Shown here: positions 19,776-38,071 of the stretch, one piece after another | How the letters are laid out: each line of letters opens with the position of its first letter | How positions within the stretch are numbered: the stretch's first letter is position 1 | Assembly: GCA_001825665.1 (NCBI GenBank) | Contig: MHXZ01000136.1 | Span: 1 to 38,071, forward strand | Source of the DNA: Planctomycetes bacterium GWF2_41_51 | GTDB lineage: Bacteria > Planctomycetota > Phycisphaerae > Sedimentisphaerales > UBA12454 | Direction of reading: 5' to 3' | DNA: 38,071 bases | Made by a program: the position numbers and the translations under genes | Notes under the pieces: generated by a model | Seen by the model: only the letters and a program-made list of their open reading frames with translations | What the model was told of the DNA's origin: nothing | The model's database searches: none

Positions 19776-20054
19776 ATGTCTCGTTCGCTAAAAAAAGGAC
19801 CGTTTGTTGACGCAAAACTTTTACAGAAGGTTTTGAAACAGATAGATTCTGGAATCAAGGAACCTATAAAGACCTGGTCAAGAAGAAGCACGATTGTTCC
19901 TGAGTTTGTAGGTTATACATTCATGGTTCATAACGGGAAAATGTTTCATAAAGTATTTGTAACTGAAGAAATGGTCGGCCATAAGCTGGGTGAGTTTTCA
20001 TTGACTCGTGTTTTCCGAGGACACTCCGGCGTAAAAGCGGCCGCTGCTGAATAA
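19776..20054 (+). CDS. rpsS: 30S ribosomal protein uS19
   Basis: Head protein that forms a complex with uS13 and contacts the large subunit. It is 92 residues, starting [12 protein letters not shown], with the motif [16 protein letters not shown] near the C-terminus. The SD GAGG lies 6 nt before the ATG. Its stop codon overlaps the SD of the following rplV. Confidence 0.99.
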
Positions 20055-20063
20055 GGTGATATA

Positions 20064-20612
20064 ATGTTAAGCGCAAAAAAGCTTGATAACTTGATTAAGA
20101 CAACCGGCACGAATGTGACAGAACTGGCCGAAAAGATGGTTCGGACAGGTATGGAAAAGAAACAGGCGGCGACGGCACTGAAGAATTGGCGTAAAGGTTT
20201 GATGAGCCCCATCCCCAAAAAAGCGGATGTCGAAGCAATCGCAACCGCGATGGGTATTCAGGTAACGGATATTTCTGAATGGCAAACCACAGTAAAATAC
20301 GCACCTTCAGCACCGCGAAAAGCAGGGCTTGTAACGCAGTTGATAGCCGGCAGAAACGCACAGGAAGCTCTCGATTTACTGAAATTCACCCATAAAAGGG
20401 CTGCTTACATTATCGAGAAGGCATTAAAAAGCGCAGTTGCCAACGCAGATGAAGATTCCGCAGATGTCGAAAATCTTTATATCAGTGAAGCAAGAGTTGA
20501 TGGCGCAGGCGTCCGGGCTGGAACCAAAAGATGGATTGCCAAAGACAGGGGCAGGGCGCACAGTCTTAGGAAATTAGCAAGTCACATTCATATTACTGTG
20601 ACTGAAATATAA
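20064..20612 (+). CDS. rplV: 50S ribosomal protein uL22 with an N-terminal HTH-like domain
   Basis: uL22 binds several domains of 23S rRNA and its hairpin lines the exit tunnel. Residues about 77-182 form a complete uL22 (RKAGLVTQLIAGRNAQEALD, KRAAYIIEKALKSAVANA, DRGRAHSLRKLASHI). Residues 1-75 are extra. They read like an XRE/Cro-type helix-turn-helix, with TNVTELAEKM, KKQAATALKNWRKG and ADVEAIATAMGIQVTDISEW in the usual helix order. The start is well supported by AAGGTGA five nt before ATG; internal ATG codons lack an SD. Fusion rather than a wrong start is therefore likely. The function of the extra domain is unknown: it could bind rRNA, regulate the operon or simply decorate the tunnel exit. 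Confidence 0.93.
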   Translation: MLSAKKLDNLIKTTGTNVTELAEKMVRTGMEKKQAATALKNWRKGLMSPIPKKADVEAIATAMGIQVTDISEWQTTVKYAPSAPRKAGLVTQLIAGRNAQEALDLLKFTHKRAAYIIEKALKSAVANADEDSADVENLYISEARVDGAGVRAGTKRWIAKDRGRAHSLRKLASHIHITVTEI

Positions 20613-20688: not shown

Positions 20689-21483
20689 ATGGGTCAAAAA
20701 GTACAGCCAATTGGTTTTAGGACAGGCATTAGGTTGCCTTGGCAGAGCACATGGTTTGCTCCTAAAGCTAGTTACGGTCAGATGCTGGTAGAAGATCAGC
20801 GGATACGTAAATATGTTGACGATAAATTCAACAGGCAGCCGCCGTTCGCGGCAGTTTCGAAAGTAGAGATTGCTCGAACTCGTAACGAAGTGAAAGTTAC
20901 GCTGCACACTGCAAGGCCTGGAATGGTTATTGGTCCGCGCGGTGCCGAAGTTGATAAACTCAGACAAGATCTTGAACAGTTAATTGACAGGCAGGTAACT
21001 GTCAATGTTATGGAAATAAAAGAACCAGCTCTTGACGCAAGACTGGCCGGCGAAGCAATAGCCGAACAGATGAAGAAAAGAGTAGCCTTCCGCAGAGCAA
21101 TGAAACAGCAATGTGAACTTTCAATGCAGGCTGGCGCAAAGGGTGTTAAAATTATCTGCTCAGGCAGGCTCGGCGGTGCTGAAATGGCACGCAAAGAGAC
21201 ACAGATGGAAGGCAGTATTCCGCTGCATACTATCGATGCTGATGTAGATTATGCTTCAGTTGGAGCAGTTACCACATACGGTGTAATTGGGATAAAGGTA
21301 TGGATTTACAAAGGTAAATTCGGTGCTCAGGAAGAACAGCAGCAGGATCAGGGAGCAAGAAGAACGCTTCACAAACCGAGAGCTGCAAGAAGAATGGCTC
21401 GAACCGCAGCACCAAGGCAGGAAGCACCAAGGTCGCAGGAAAGGTCAAGTCAAAAACCTGAAACTGAGAATAAACAGTCGTAA
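20689..21483 (+). CDS. rpsC: 30S ribosomal protein uS3
   Basis: Lines the mRNA entry channel and has helicase-related lysines and arginines. It starts MGQKVQPIGFRTG, has a KH-type domain with GMVIGPRGAEVDKL near 78-91, and the C-terminal domain GVKIICSGRLGGAEMAR. At 264 residues it is longer than the usual 210-233, with a Gln/Arg-rich low-complexity tail from about residue 215. GAAAGG upstream acts as SD. Confidence 0.98.
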   Translation: MGQKVQPIGFRTGIRLPWQSTWFAPKASYGQMLVEDQRIRKYVDDKFNRQPPFAAVSKVEIARTRNEVKVTLHTARPGMVIGPRGAEVDKLRQDLEQLIDRQVTVNVMEIKEPALDARLAGEAIAEQMKKRVAFRRAMKQQCELSMQAGAKGVKIICSGRLGGAEMARKETQMEGSIPLHTIDADVDYASVGAVTTYGVIGIKVWIYKGKFGAQEEQQQDQGARRTLHKPRAARRMARTAAPRQEAPRSQERSSQKPETENKQS

Positions 21484-28356: not shown

Positions 28357-29136
28357 ATGGCGATAATTTTAAGAAGTCGCAGAGAAATTGAAATAATGAA
28401 AAAAGCCGGCGAGATAGTCGCCGATGTTCTTTTAAAACTGAAAGAGTCCGCGGTAGCTGGACAAACAACTGCTCAGTTGAATCGTATAGCTGAAGACATG
28501 ACTGCAAAAGCCGGTGCCGAAGCACTGTTTAAGGGTGTCAGAAATCCTTATGGTTATAAACCTTTCCCGGCTGCGGTTTGTACTTCAATCAATCAGCAGG
28601 TTGTACACGGAATACCGTCGGATAATGTTATACTGCGAGAAGGTGATATTCTCAGTGTCGATTTTGGAGTTAGAATTGACGGGTATTGCGGTGATGCCGC
28701 TTTGTCAGTTGGAATAGGACAAATTGACCCGCGAAAGCAGCTCCTTATGGACGTGACAGCACGAATGCTTGATATCGCTATCGAAAACAGTAAACCAGGC
28801 GAAAAATGGAGCCGAATTGCGAAATTAATGCAAGAGGCCGCCAAATCTGCAGGGTTTTCGGTTGTTACCGAATTTGTTGGTCATGGGATTGGCACACAGA
28901 TGCATGAAGATCCTAAGGTTCCGAATTTTGTAAGCAGGGATCTTTTAAGTCATGACATCCTCTTGCAGGAAGGAATGGTAATGGCAGTTGAGCCTATGGT
29001 TAATATGGGCACTAGCCAGGTAATTACGTTAAAGGATGGCTGGACGGTTGCCACAAAAGACGGCAAGCCTTCAGCTCATTTTGAGCATACAATTGCTATA
29101 ACTAAAAGCGGCTGCGAAGTCTTGACTTTAAAATAA
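28357..29136 (+). CDS. map: Methionine aminopeptidase, type I
   Basis: Removes the initiator Met from new proteins. The 259 residues carry the five metal ligands of the type I enzyme: Asp102, Asp113, His176, Glu212 and Glu243, plus substrate His84. There is no N-terminal zinc or SH3 extension. It starts 2 nt after adk stops, as in many spc operons. Confidence 0.99.
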
Positions 29137-33300: not shown

Positions 33301-34539
33301 ATGGCGAGCCTTTACAAGCGTGGAAAAAAATATTGGGCGACCTATTATATCAACGGCGACCAGATAAAAAAATCTCTTGAGACCGCTGATGAAAGGGTTG
33401 CCAAAAGCAAATTCAAAAAAATAGAATATGAAATTGCTATAGGTGAACTTGAGTTGGCAAGCAAATTGCCATTGCCCATGATTCTTGAATCCTTCTGCCA
33501 GGAACTGAAGGCAAACCGCACATTCAAATCGTACAAAAATGATTTCAGCAGGCTGAGAATATTTTTCGGGCCAATTTGCGAGTCATTGAAAGTCGGTGTT
33601 GCCGGAACCAAATTAGGGGATAGCAAAAAACAGGGCTATGACAAATTTGCCGGAAAGCACATCAAGGCGGATTTGCTTGAGGATATTACCCCTCAGATGA
33701 TTTATCGCTTTATATCAGAGCGAAAGCAAAATGACAAATGGTCGCCAAAAACCGTTAACTTGCTTCGCCAGACACTGCACAAATTATTTTCATTTGCAAC
33801 CAAGCATTATAATTTCAAAAGCAGGGACAGAAAGGTTGCAAATCCTGCCGCTGCGGTGACAAAGGAAAAAGAATCCGCTCCCAATATCAAATTTCTTACA
33901 AGTGATGACATTACAAAACAGCTTGAAATCCTCAAGGAAGAAAAAGCAATCCATGCAATGGTGGCAACGTATATTTATGCCGGCCTAAGAAGGGAAGAAG
34001 CGTTATGGCTTACCTATAATGATATTGACCTGGATAAAAAACTTATCAAGGTTCAGGCTAAAGAAATTGATGGTGAATACTGGCAGCCTAAGACAAAGAA
34101 AAACAGGGTTGTGCCTATCAGTTCTGATTTGTTTGAGATTCTCAAAAATTATCATCCGCCTTTTAATTGCGTATGGTTCTTTCCTTCGCCAATGGGGAAA
34201 AGATGGGATACGGATAATTTTTCGCAAGACCTTCGGGAGATTAACAAAAAGCAGAGCCTTGACTGGTCATGCCTTGATTTTCGTCATACATTCGGAAGCC
34301 ACCTTGCACAAAACGGTGTATCGCTTTATAAAATCTCAACGCTTATGGGCAATTCGCCTGAAATATGCCGCAGGCATTACGCTGCGTTGATTCCGGAAGA
34401 AATGGCGGATGTTGTTGAATTCAATAATTCGGCAGTTGAAGAAGATAGTGAAGCCAAAGAACTGCTCAAGGAAATACTTGATGAAATGAGGGGCAGAAAA
34501 GGTGGTGGTTTTAAATCTAAAATAAAACTTGTACGATGA
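33301..34539 (+). CDS. Tyrosine recombinase (site-specific integrase)
   Basis: Cuts and rejoins DNA at att sites to integrate or excise a mobile element. The 412 residues comprise an N-terminal AP2-like/SAM-like binding region (about 1-180) and a C-terminal catalytic domain. Visible are Arg230 (GLRREE), a Lys near 267, Arg328 (DFRHT) and nucleophile Tyr360 (RRHY). The His of HxxR is Leu325, and the usual GHS/GHK His is Asn351. I recall similar MGNSPEICRRHYAAL sequences in planctomycete integrases, so these changes are probably lineage-typical rather than inactivating. GGAG upstream. Located just after tRNA-fMet, a common integration site. Confidence 0.93.
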   Translation: MASLYKRGKKYWATYYINGDQIKKSLETADERVAKSKFKKIEYEIAIGELELASKLPLPMILESFCQELKANRTFKSYKNDFSRLRIFFGPICESLKVGVAGTKLGDSKKQGYDKFAGKHIKADLLEDITPQMIYRFISERKQNDKWSPKTVNLLRQTLHKLFSFATKHYNFKSRDRKVANPAAAVTKEKESAPNIKFLTSDDITKQLEILKEEKAIHAMVATYIYAGLRREEALWLTYNDIDLDKKLIKVQAKEIDGEYWQPKTKKNRVVPISSDLFEILKNYHPPFNCVWFFPSPMGKRWDTDNFSQDLREINKKQSLDWSCLDFRHTFGSHLAQNGVSLYKISTLMGNSPEICRRHYAALIPEEMADVVEFNNSAVEEDSEAKELLKEILDEMRGRKGGGFKSKIKLVR

Positions 34540-34543
34540 TTGC

Positions 34544-34744
34544 TTATTCAATGTGTTCCATGGAATCAAGCCAGCCTTTTACTTCCTCCCATTTGTAGCG
34601 TATTGCTCCATTTTTTCCTCTACCAATACTTACAGGTTTTATTCCGGCCTGTGTAAGCCATCTGCGGACAGATGTTCTGTGCGCATCCAACATTGTAGCA
34701 AGAGATTTTAAGCTGACAGCTAATCTTTGTGTTTCTTCCATCAT
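34544..34744 (-). CDS. Small HTH protein, excisionase/AlpA-like
   Basis: A 66-residue protein with one MerR/AlpA-type helix-turn-helix: LKSLATMLDAHRTSVRRWL followed by a wing-like IGRGKNGAIRYKWEEVKGWLDS. Such proteins act as excisionases or as regulators of an adjacent integrase. The gene is convergent with the integrase (4-nt gap) and its ATG overlaps the stop of the upstream zinc-ribbon gene (TGATG). In-frame GTG and ATG neighbours make the exact start uncertain by one or two codons. Its start region is duplicated at 34911-35009. Confidence 0.8.
   Translation of the reverse strand: MMEETQRLAVSLKSLATMLDAHRTSVRRWLTQAGIKPVSIGRGKNGAIRYKWEEVKGWLDSMEHIE
34704..34730. repeat. 27-nt direct repeat, copy 1
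   Basis: This stretch, inside the 5' part of the HTH gene, is identical to 34972-34998, 268 nt away. It begins GATTTTAAGCTGACAGC and ends AATCTTTGT. It marks the tandem duplication of the zinc-ribbon/HTH gene pair. Confidence 0.85.
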
Positions 34745-34914
34745 CACTCAGGGTGGGAAAGGCGAAACTGATAGCCGCAGTTGCCGCATAAACCGTTTAC
34801 GTTTTCGTCAATAACCACATGGCTGCATCTTAAGCAGAACATAAACCACTGGTAAGGGTCTGCTTTTTTCTGCCGCTTTTTATTTTTTTTAAATTGTTTC
34901 ATGTATACTTTCAT
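34744..34914 (-). CDS. Small zinc-ribbon protein, copy B
   Basis: A 56-residue protein with two CxxC motifs, FCLRC and LCGNC, 12 residues apart, forming a zinc ribbon after a Lys-rich N-terminus. It is clearly paralogous to the protein at 35018-35185: both share FMFC.RC.H.VI.EN.NG.CGNCGY. Its ATG at 34914 overlaps the stop of the decayed HTH copy (ATGA); a second in-frame ATG is at 34902. The function is not known; DNA, RNA or protein binding is possible. Confidence 0.7.
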   Translation of the reverse strand: MKVYMKQFKKNKKRQKKADPYQWFMFCLRCSHVVIDENVNGLCGNCGYQFRLSHPE

Positions 34915-35009
34915 GCACACATTCTACTAAATATTCTTTTGCGGCAGAAGACTTGACGATTACAGGCTGCTGATTTTAAGCTGACAGCTAATCTTTGTTC
35001 TTTTTCCAT
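34911..35009 (-). pseudogene. Truncated copy of the HTH gene
   Basis: The first 13 codons (MEKEQRLAVSLKS) match the start of the HTH gene at 34744, including a 27-nt identical stretch. The reading frame then diverges to an unrelated short tail ending in TGA at 34911, 32 residues in all. The HTH itself is lost, so it cannot work as a DNA-binding protein. It lies 8 nt after the stop of zinc-ribbon copy A, the same order as the intact pair. Confidence 0.7.
34972..34998. repeat. 27-nt direct repeat, copy 2
   Basis: Identical to 34704-34730. It lies in the truncated HTH copy and ends where similarity to the intact gene stops. Confidence 0.85.
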
Positions 35010-35017
35010 ATAGAAAA

Positions 35018-35185
35018 TTACTCAGAGCAGGAAGGGCAGAAGCGATAACCGCAGTTACCGCAAAAACCATTCATGTTTTCACCAATGACAGTATGGCCAC
35101 ATCTGGGGCAGAACATAAAATTCTGTAGTTCTGCCTTTACCTGCAAATTATTTTGGTGCGAATTTTTTATTATTTTTTCTTCCAT
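35018..35185 (-). CDS. Small zinc-ribbon protein, copy A
   Basis: A 55-residue paralogue of the copy at 34744-34914. It has three CxxC motifs, FCPRC, FCGNC and FCPSC, the last missing from copy B. The start ATG at 35185 gives nearly the same length as copy B (56). A GTG nine codons upstream would give 64 residues, but neither has a good SD. No function recognised. Confidence 0.65.
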   Translation of the reverse strand: MEEKIIKNSHQNNLQVKAELQNFMFCPRCGHTVIGENMNGFCGNCGYRFCPSCSE

Positions 35186-35234
35186 ATCGAACCGATAACT
35201 TTTAATCAACACGATTCATGGATATTTCGAAAAC

Positions 35235-35564
35235 TCACCTATCAAGTGGAGTAAAGCATCGAAGACATCTTTTCATTAGATGACGGACACTTTCCGGGAT
35301 GACCATATTGCATTTTGGGCAGTTAAAAGTAAGGCAAAAACCTCTCATTTTTTCTGAAATTTCAATCTCCCAACTGAATTCTTCGCTGGGCTTTTGCAAT
35401 ACTCGGGTTCCACATTCGATGCAAAATTCAGGAGCGTATTTCTTAATCCATATTATGCCGCATTCAGGGCAGCGACATAAGAATCCATCAGAATGTTCTT
35501 CTTTAAAATGTGATGCAGACATTCTATATATTCCACTCATTTCATATTCATTCTGTGCATTCAT
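35235..35564 (-). CDS. Double zinc-ribbon protein
   Basis: A 109-residue hypothetical protein with two ribbons: CPEC...CIEC in the first half and CPKC...CLRC in the second, each pair about 15 residues apart. The ATG at 35564 is chosen because AAGGA lies 7 nt before it; a longer reading from 35633 has no SD. It is not clearly homologous to the 55-residue ribbons outside the cysteines. Function unknown. Confidence 0.65.
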   Translation of the reverse strand: MNAQNEYEMSGIYRMSASHFKEEHSDGFLCRCPECGIIWIKKYAPEFCIECGTRVLQKPSEEFSWEIEISEKMRGFCLTFNCPKCNMVIPESVRHLMKRCLRCFTPLDR

Positions 35565-35692
35565 AGCGTTTTCCTTAAAAAAATATGAGTAAATTAGCGA
35601 TACCAATAGATTACCATAAGAACATACCATCAATGTTATTTAAGGGTTACATATCGATGATTATTGACTAATCACAGGGTTTTTCTTCGGTG

Positions 35693-35728
35693 AAATTTGG
35701 TTTTTCGAAGAGCAGAAAAACCAAATTT
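35693..35728 (+). promoter_or_regulatory. Perfect 14-bp inverted repeat before a small gene
   Basis: AAATTTGGTTTTTC (35693-35706) and GAAAAACCAAATTT (35715-35728) are exact complements separated by 8 nt. The right arm ends directly at GGAGGG (35729-35734), the probable SD of the next gene. An RNA hairpin here could limit ribosome access, or the DNA could be an operator. Confidence 0.6.
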
Positions 35729-35735
35729 GGAGGGT

Positions 35736-35960
35736 ATGAAAATCATTATGAGAATAAGAAACAGGAAAATAAACCGAAAGAAGCTTATCGCAAAGCTCGA
35801 ATCCTGGAACTCCACCTTTGATAACATAGATGAAGATGGAGAGCAGGAAAGCAGCAGCCTGGATAAGATACTTCCCAGACTAAGGCAAAATAATCGACTT
35901 ACCAAAAAAGATGAAGAAGAGATATTGTTTCATCTGAAACAGATGGAGGCAGGAGAATGA
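35736..35960 (+). CDS. Small hypothetical protein
   Basis: A 74-residue protein with a very basic N-terminal part (MRIRNRKINRKKLIAK) and an acidic, charged second half ending in a helix-forming segment LTKKDEEEILFHLKQMEAGE. GGAGGG lies just upstream; the first ATG is only 1 nt from it, and the in-frame ATG at 35748 is 13 nt away, so the start is uncertain. The end overlaps the next gene by ATGA. No family recognised. Confidence 0.55.
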   Translation: MKIIMRIRNRKINRKKLIAKLESWNSTFDNIDEDGEQESSSLDKILPRLRQNNRLTKKDEEEILFHLKQMEAGE

Positions 35961-36067
35961 AAAGATGTAAATTGTGCGGAAGGGAAAAAGAAGAATCTGA
36001 ATTAATGGGTAATTTGTGTACCCGGTGTGATTCAATAGCAGGGGATGTAATGGTGGGGGAGCTATAA
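35957..36067 (+). CDS. 36-residue zinc-ribbon peptide
   Basis: A short reading frame, MKRCKLCGRE...LCTRCD..., with CxxC at Cys4/Cys7 and Cys21/Cys24. The ATG overlaps the stop of the preceding gene (ATGA) and GGAGGCAGGAG lies just upstream, so translation is plausible. It is too short for confident family assignment. Confidence 0.5.
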   Translation: MKRCKLCGREKEESELMGNLCTRCDSIAGDVMVGEL

Positions 36068-36143
36068 AAAGTCCTGAGATTACAAACCGTTAGTATACAG
36101 GATTATATAAACGTTGTACTTTGACATCGCGTAGATGAGATAC

Positions 36144-37016
36144 TTACTGCTTGAAAATATCATTTAATGCATTAATCGCTTTACGGATATCAAACGTGTT
36201 CTTTTCTTCAAGCGTTAGGACATCAAGCAATTCTACCTCAATCCGCGATAGCATATCTCGGATTTCATCGTCAGATCGTCCCATATTTACACAATATCGC
36301 TTAAGGTCAGTAGCAAATTTATCTTCCGCCAATTTTTTCTGGAATAAGGACAGAAGTTTTCTATCTCTAAAATTAAATCCTGTTCGACGCAGATAGTCGA
36401 GATCATAAAAGTCCCTCGGCGCTATTACAGACCGTGTAGCTGCAGCCCTCATCTTTTCTGCAACGAGTTCTTTCAGTGTGAGGCATTTCACACTGCCACC
36501 CTCAAAAAGCGGTTCATTTGTAAAAGGATGAAGAAATAGATGCTTAATATTTTGCTTTGTTGTAGGCAATAAAGGATTGAATCTTAATCCAATCTCTATT
36601 TTTAAAGATTGCTGCTTATCTACAACAGCCGAATCATAATTGACGTAATAAATGTACTGTGTGGACTCACGGTGTCCGGCAGTTTCAATGGTTTCAACGT
36701 TCAAACCGTAACCTTTGGCAAATGTTTGAATTTTATCTTTAATGGGCTTGATGATATTTCGCCGGATTGAACGGGTGACCACACTATCAGGGAGTTCTAA
36801 TGAAAAATCCATATCTTCACTGAGGCGATAATATGAATAATACGCCTTGCTTAAACACGTTCCCCCTTTAAATATCAATTTTTCGCTTAGGACATTAATG
36901 CCGGAGAGAAGAAGGGTGATGTAGTAATCTTTTTCAAGCAGCGTAAGCGGAAAACCTGTCTGGGCTGATGTCCGCTCCAGTATTTTTATAAACTCATTTC
37001 GATTTGTATGTATCAT
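36144..37016 (-). CDS. AbiEii-family nucleotidyltransferase toxin
   Basis: Toxin component of the AbiE type IV toxin-antitoxin/abortive phage resistance family (DUF1814-type nucleotidyltransferase). The 290 residues show FKGGTCLSKAYY at 49-60 followed by RLSEDMDFS (Asp68, Asp70 as metal ligands), then KELVAEKMRAA and RDFYDLDYL. The ATG at 37016 overlaps the end of the abiEi gene by 23 nt, typical for these pairs, with GGAAAG upstream. An upstream in-frame start at 37070 would add 18 residues with no SD. Confidence 0.88.
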   Translation of the reverse strand: MIHTNRNEFIKILERTSAQTGFPLTLLEKDYYITLLLSGINVLSEKLIFKGGTCLSKAYYSYYRLSEDMDFSLELPDSVVTRSIRRNIIKPIKDKIQTFAKGYGLNVETIETAGHRESTQYIYYVNYDSAVVDKQQSLKIEIGLRFNPLLPTTKQNIKHLFLHPFTNEPLFEGGSVKCLTLKELVAEKMRAAATRSVIAPRDFYDLDYLRRTGFNFRDRKLLSLFQKKLAEDKFATDLKRYCVNMGRSDDEIRDMLSRIEVELLDVLTLEEKNTFDIRKAINALNDIFKQ

Positions 37017-37809
37017 CGAGAATAACTTTCCATGTTGGGTTAATTGGACCTTTACGGGATTTGGAACCATATAGTGTGGTCAATGCATTTGTCTTGATGC
37101 TTTTTTTCAAGGGCATAAGCAAAGCATTTGATATGCCGCATTGCTCAAGAATAAATCCGATACGTTTGCGAGTTGAGATACTCGGGAAAATCATTGCATA
37201 CCTGATAAGTTTTTTGACATCAGTCTTTCCATTCTTTAACTGCGATTTAAGAATATGAAAAGCATTGCGAAATCCGCCGATTGGGTCTGGAAAATATATC
37301 AAATCGATAAGAGTGCGTTCACGATCACTGACAGTAGCTTTTATATCGCGGATATCTATTTTTTCAAGGCCATACATGCGATTCGGCGATATTTTTACAA
37401 GTTTGAATAGAGTTCCACAAATAATTCGCTCACGCTGACGTGATGTATTGAGAATGTAGAAGGTTTGAAAGAGTTGGTCGGTAAAGCCATAATAGTTGTA
37501 CATCGTTGAATAACCGATATAGTAATTACCCCTGGGAAAAAGCAATGAGGGTATCAAATATTCGTTTATTCGGCTTCCCGCAGGGCCAGATTCGAGCGGT
37601 GAAAAGAAGTACACTCCCTTGGTAATCGGTGTCAGGATGCGTTTTTTCCTGAGACGATAAATGATTTGTTTTCGGGTATTTGTATTGAAATTAAAAAACT
37701 CGTCGAACTGTTTTACGGTAATTACAAAAAGTCTCTCATAGGTCAAACGTGCAATGACCTGGGTTTCATTAGGTCCAAGAAATCTTTTTAATTGACTATT
37801 CTTAATCAT
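36994..37809 (-). CDS. AbiEi-family antitoxin/regulator
   Basis: Antitoxin partner and likely autorepressor of the AbiE system. The 271 residues start with a winged-helix-like region (about 35-70: FFNFNTNTRKQIIYRLRKKRILTPITKGVYFF), followed by the AbiEi C-terminal domain that normally blocks the toxin. Gene order and overlap with abiEii are typical. An inverted repeat lies directly before the start (37812-37828). Assignment rests on domain architecture and partner gene. Confidence 0.82.
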   Translation of the reverse strand: MIKNSQLKRFLGPNETQVIARLTYERLFVITVKQFDEFFNFNTNTRKQIIYRLRKKRILTPITKGVYFFSPLESGPAGSRINEYLIPSLLFPRGNYYIGYSTMYNYYGFTDQLFQTFYILNTSRQRERIICGTLFKLVKISPNRMYGLEKIDIRDIKATVSDRERTLIDLIYFPDPIGGFRNAFHILKSQLKNGKTDVKKLIRYAMIFPSISTRKRIGFILEQCGISNALLMPLKKSIKTNALTTLYGSKSRKGPINPTWKVILDDTYKSK

Positions 37810-37811
37810 AG

Positions 37812-37828
37812 GTTATTTAGTAAATAAC
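37812..37828 (-). promoter_or_regulatory. Operator-like palindrome before abiEi
   Basis: GTTATTT (37812-37818) and AAATAAC (37822-37828) form a 7-bp inverted repeat with a 3-nt spacer, 3 nt upstream of the abiEi ATG on the minus strand. AbiEi proteins are known to bind inverted repeats in their own promoter. Confidence 0.6.
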
Positions 37829-37839
37829 TATCGTAAAAT

Positions 37840-37845
37840 ATTATA
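37840..37845 (-). promoter_or_regulatory. -10 element of the abiE promoter
   Basis: On the minus strand the bases read TATAAT, a perfect -10, placing the start near 37833, just upstream of the palindrome. I see no convincing -35 at 16-18 nt. Confidence 0.5.
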
Positions 37846-37985
37846 CAATAGATTTTAACCAATAAAAGAGCGTAGTCAAGACAAAAATCAGAGCTTTCCG
37901 TTGTTATGGAATCGACAAATTGAGTAATTTTACCCATCGTGTAAAACAGTTCAAAGCTTATAAAGCTTGATGAAAATAAAAAAAG

Positions 37986-38071
37986 ATGAATAAAAAATAT
38001 GATCCACAAGAAATTATCTTATCAAAATTGGATGGTTTAATGCAAATCGCTCAGGAAATAGAAAAATATTC
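37986..38071 (+). CDS. Start of a gene cut by the window end
   Basis: An open frame of 28 codons runs to the end: MNKKYDPQEIILSKLDGLMQ and so on. The composition looks coding, with alternating charged and hydrophobic residues, but no family is visible in this short piece. An A-rich stretch precedes the ATG, with no clear SD. Confidence 0.45.
   Translation, partial: MNKKYDPQEIILSKLDGLMQIAQEIEKY

Follow-up and report, generated by a model that had tools for sequence, protein, structure and literature searches.

A predicted XRE/Cro-C1-type domain at the N-terminus of ribosomal protein uL22 in two clades of planctomycetes

The window analysed here is a whole contig of 38,071 nucleotides (38 kb) which carries a ribosomal gene cluster and comes from a planctomycete genome of 4.83 Mb. 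The rplV gene for ribosomal protein uL22 (20064-20612, forward strand) begins with ATG and its open reading frame translates to 182 amino acids; in the list of open reading frames it lies between rpsS (uS19; 19776..20054, forward strand) upstream and rpsC (uS3; 20689..21483, forward strand) downstream in an S10-type operon, the usual place for a bacterial uL22. This universal protein of the ribosome exit is mostly about 110 residues long in bacteria. In the window protein PF00237 (Ribosomal_L22) from Pfam spans residues 77-179 (E 6.8e-26, 90.9 bits with a cut-off of 28) and TIGR01044 from NCBIfam spans residues 78-179 (85 bits with a cut-off of 73.65), and residues 1-75 are therefore extra. 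The uL22 body (residues 76-182; 20289..20609, forward strand) is complete, with its tunnel beta-hairpin region, and Foldseek matched it to uL22 chains of bacteria, with E-values as low as 6e-12. The protein thus shares with other bacterial uL22 proteins a complete body of about 105 residues scoring above both cut-offs, and the rpsS-rpsC position, but differs from them in about 75 additional N-terminal residues (20064..20288, forward strand) which are predicted to form a folded domain. The same ribosomal cluster holds a gene recognised by eye as that for methionine aminopeptidase (28357-29136), an enzyme that works close to uL22 at the exit site. Beyond the cluster lies a putative mobile island (33301-38009), whose genes were named from reading the sequence only: an integrase-like open reading frame (33301-34539), a small helix-turn-helix or excisionase-like one (34544-34747, reverse strand) and one resembling an AbiEii-type nucleotidyltransferase (36144-37070, reverse strand).

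The original prediction had argued from a Shine-Dalgarno sequence that translation starts at the upstream ATG, and in this genome such a sequence (AAGGTGA; 20053..20059, forward strand) does lie 4 nt upstream of the rplV ATG, overlapping the rpsS stop codon. As a general argument this did not hold, as only 33 of the 81 genes compared (the window's, which is one of the 33, and those of 80 relatives from its order) have a Shine-Dalgarno-like sequence ahead of the main start. The upstream start itself was upheld by other evidence: it is ATG in all 81 sequences (the corresponding start being mostly GTG in f5, a distant family of the same class), the internal ATGs of the window gene are codons 25, 30, 47 and 63 with none at the uL22 boundary, and in 80 of the 81 sequences codons 66-80 include no ATG preceded by a Shine-Dalgarno-like sequence. 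Comparison of residues 1-75 with those of six close relatives gave dN values of 0.08-0.22 and dS values of 1.3-2.1, with dN below dS wherever dS was measurable, and the extension is under purifying selection. An annotation artefact or wrong start was ruled out by this conservation, by the codon changes and by the lack of an alternative start. A related alternative is that the extension is absent from mature uL22, through an internal translation start or cleavage of the domain; the low count of Shine-Dalgarno-like sequences at the main start speaks for it, as do GTG or TTG codons found near codons 63-76 in many sequences, but near the boundary no ATG with such a sequence is conserved, no linker is available to cut, and selection has acted upon the 75 codons of a domain which is kept in two clades, so that we consider this alternative highly improbable. 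A promoter and terminator scan around rplV yielded chance-level matches only.

A whole-protein search of 392 genomes of the phylum found the extension in genomes of the window's order, Sedimentisphaerales, and in two families of the same class, f5 and the small family f9; in other families the alignment was to the uL22 body only. A profile (A1) built from 16 sequences of the extension matched 139 of 397 genomes of the class (E down to 2e-32), nearly all in open reading frames of uL22-fusion size; two weak partial matches in longer reading frames (G231, 1.8e-4, and a second match in G695, 3.8e-4) were regarded as spurious. Within the order, the A1 profile table shows the extension in 91 of the 95 genomes sampled, and a full-protein search of the four exceptions found three without any rplV match and one with only a 34-codon C-terminal piece. 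In f5, 114 of 120 genomes have the extension, including 91/91 of those with completeness of 90% or more and contamination of 5% or less, and five of the six exceptions were checked, all five being without an rplV match. Named relatives with the extension include Sedimentisphaerales, Anaerohalosphaeraceae and several MAGs labelled only as Phycisphaerae or Planctomycetota, and all 80 relatives listed align from residue 1. This clade-wide occurrence rules out a quirk of one MAG; the extension is real and old, and the N-terminal fusion originally predicted is found throughout two separate clades, a broader distribution than was first thought. The other class and phylum families examined have an ordinary uL22 of about 110-125 amino acids, agreeing with the earlier statement that the domain is missing from ordinary bacterial uL22. 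A different elaboration was seen in another planctomycete family, f27 (L025, L027, L029), whose uL22 continues into a C-terminal tail, some 20-40 residues long, in which A, E and K are abundant.

The original prediction read the extension as a helix-turn-helix domain from motifs which we located at residues 18-25, 38-45 and 54-70. AlphaFold2, with an input of 81 sequences from the window and the related loci, gave the whole protein a mean pLDDT of 89.9. The domain by itself scored 89.7 and had five confident helices (residues 4-14, 18-24, 32-43, 53-63 and 67-70). In Foldseek and VIA-align searches with the domain-alone structure, nearly all matches were to Cro/C1-type proteins, including CylR2, C.Csp231I, SinR, DdrO and P22 c2, and in VIA-align the Z score was 9.5 for CylR2 and C.Csp231I, with 65-70 residues aligned, and 299 chains had a Z of at least 5. 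The Foldseek E-values of the domain were modest (at least 0.03), so the fold is argued from how uniform the list is, from the Z of about 9.5 and from independent sequence matches. The latter were weak but consistent: HTH_31 matched 12 and HTH_3 matched 7 of the 16 sequences, the best values were 4.4e-6 for HTH_19 and 4.7e-8 for a PHROG transcriptional regulator, and there were further matches to HTH_26 and phage repressor families. The window protein scored below the Pfam gathering score (HTH_26, 19.0 bits with a cut-off of 22) and the other single sequences checked also gave weak matches below Pfam cut-offs. The best sequence-profile match of the domain in the PDB was the helix-turn-helix region of the transposon protein TniQ (0.005-0.01), and a Homeobox_KN match, partial and below its own cut-off, was set aside. 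The predicted structure, its comparison with known structures and the helix-turn-helix family matches support an XRE/Cro-C1 (lambda-repressor-like) five-helix fold for residues 1-75, in keeping with the helix-turn-helix reading. In the AlphaFold2 model helix 5 runs directly into the first uL22 strand without a linker, and in non-carrier relatives uL22 begins about 7 residues ahead of the body, so the domain was joined at the natural N-terminus.

Compared with XRE/Cro-C1 proteins (HTH_3, HTH_26, HTH_31; SinR, CylR2, C.Csp231I, P22 c2), the uL22 domain has the same five helices, with an LA motif in helix 2, a W closing helix 3, a loop rich in P and LA..LGV in helix 4, but it differs in being fused to a ribosomal protein, in that its single sequences for which cut-offs were shown fall under the Pfam gathering scores, and in the features used for reading DNA. 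From A22 in helix 2 to W42 at the end of helix 3 there are 20 residues, against a matching distance of 13 residues in the 434 repressor. Judged by this spacing and the helix limits, the turn (residues 25-31; 20136..20156, forward strand) is about 7 residues longer than in canonical XRE proteins, the extra residues lying in the turn and at the start of helix 3. In our own motif alignment to the 434 sequence, the positions aligned with base-reading residues are small or hydrophobic, being mostly V, A or I at position 36 and A or S at position 37, with an invariant N at position 41 (81 sequences); the domain has neither the short turn of canonical DNA-binding regulators nor their polar residues at the base-contacting positions of helix 3. 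The extension evolves faster than the uL22 body (mean column entropy 1.52 versus 0.79), and within it variability peaks in the first half of helix 3 (2.14 versus the domain mean) and conservation in the second half (0.82), at the end of which stand N41-W42 (20184..20189, forward strand), which are invariant in 81/81 sequences of the order alignment and 16/16 of the diverse alignment.

The domain is basic, with a mean pI of 9.2 and a net charge of +3.7, and K or R occupies positions 6, 27, 40, 44 and 48 in 79-100% of the order sequences (consensus K6, R27, K40, K44 and K48); in f5 these residues are only partly conserved, K44 often being A or S. As far as sequence can indicate, the variability of helix 3 and the placement of the basic residues speak against a conserved DNA site, and the basic pattern would be compatible with non-specific contact to a nucleic acid backbone; alternatively, the variable recognition positions could reflect co-evolving DNA sites. 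uL4 and other ribosomal proteins are autoregulators in other bacteria, and this precedent, together with the fold shared with repressors, would speak for an explanation in which free uL22 uses its helix-turn-helix to bind S10 operon DNA or mRNA, repressing the operon whenever ribosomal proteins are made in surplus. Such a regulator is an unlikely explanation given the residues at the base-reading positions, the lengthened turn and an N-terminal half of helix 3 that is the least conserved part of the domain, and the regulatory, DNA-binding role suggested in the original prediction has so far found no support. Small, hydrophobic and variable reading positions, a longer turn and basic residues placed elsewhere instead favour a module contacting rRNA or other factors over a DNA-binding regulator, and a regulatory role is therefore less likely than one in the ribosome.

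The history of the domain was followed in a tree of the uL22 body and in one built for 48 genomes on 11 ribosomal proteins. In the 11-protein tree the order and f5 with f9 are apart, with non-carriers between them and the non-carrier family f8 placed beside f9, a single carrier clade was rejected (AU p 7e-59), and by parsimony the carrier label needs 3 changes; the uL22-body tree gave the same picture (AU p 0.0145). As both trees reject one carrier clade, the body appears to be vertically inherited, and the AU tests rule out that the fused gene passed in its entirety from one clade to the other. A profile built from the order only found the domains of f5 and f9 at 1e-10 to 1e-19, the next best match in 20 genomes being at 0.06, which rules out unrelated domains in the two clades and indicates, at the level of sequence, that their domains are homologous. 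With a homologous domain and a body that follows the species, the domain would either have been gained early and then lost repeatedly or have moved by transfer of the gene's 5' part.

On the ribosome, the tunnel exit is surrounded by uL22 together with uL23, uL24 and uL29 (PMC5071890), and peptide deformylase binds uL22 next to the exit (PMC8712518). We consider it somewhat more probable than otherwise, at about 0.55, that the extension is a ribosome-anchored module, a permanent part of the large subunit which no longer reads DNA, is held by rRNA and has a structural or docking role. An XRE/Cro-C1-type domain would have been fused onto the N-terminus of uL22 within Phycisphaerae and retained as a permanent large-subunit part in Sedimentisphaerales, f5 and f9, probably losing its ability to read DNA. 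It would sit beside the uL22 body on the exterior of the large subunit, close to the tunnel exit, where K6, R27, K40, K44 and K48 may hold it to the rRNA backbone, and as a structural or docking module it may alter the platform for 23S rRNA or for nascent-chain factors such as peptide deformylase. The domain might otherwise serve mainly to dock a factor that handles nascent chains or targets them to the membrane (deformylase, methionine aminopeptidase, trigger factor or SRP), with little rRNA contact, as the known deformylase site on uL22 (PMC8712518) and the linkerless attachment would allow, but its basic character fits rRNA at least equally well, and we regard this as a secondary and rather doubtful reading, if a better one than the regulator.

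The 23S rRNA genes were located by DNA searches with the E. coli 23S sequence and aligned to E. coli numbering in 11 carriers and 12 non-carriers, the assembly of the window's genome being without 23S. No length difference over 20-nt E. coli intervals separated the 11 carriers from the 12 non-carriers, and among them no rRNA insertion or deletion tracked the domain. Single genomes have about 300 extra nt, possibly intervening sequences, near E. coli positions 541-560 (L250, G372) and 1861-1880 (L245, G127), and f5, f8 and f9 have shortened 23S helices at about 1461-1540, regardless of the uL22 domain (L246-L255, L264).

Other enlarged forms of uL22 are known. Chloroplast uL22c is likewise enlarged at the tunnel exit by terminal extensions, the spinach protein having 89 extra residues, but chloroplast extensions are mostly extended and poorly resolved (PMC5071890) whereas the planctomycete one is predicted to be a compact fold of DNA-binding type. 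The "L22/unknown domain fusion protein" NF008917/PRK12279 also joins uL22 to another domain; NF008917 (311 positions) matches the uL22 body only, at its positions 13-108 (42.9 bits with a cut-off of 526), so its extra part is C-terminal, in contrast to the N-terminal extension here. XRE-fold domains occur on non-transcription-factor proteins in enzymes of the HppE/PhpD type (structure matches 1zz7 and 3gbf), but these are metabolic enzymes and not ribosomal proteins. As in the original prediction, which knew of no such case, no published helix-turn-helix fusion to uL22 was found in the part of the literature that is searchable, and novelty is claimed provisionally.

Across two broad clades, every well-assembled genome examined has kept the domain, which implies that it does have a role in translation or nascent-chain handling. 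The fusion would clearly exemplify the recruitment of a DNA-binding fold by a ribosomal protein, and the uL22 domain may serve as a marker for the evolution of Phycisphaerae. We suggest, more tentatively and at rather less than even odds, that a repressor-type domain has become a permanent, clade-defining part of the large subunit beside the exit, where it would alter the processing or targeting of nascent proteins in these bacteria.
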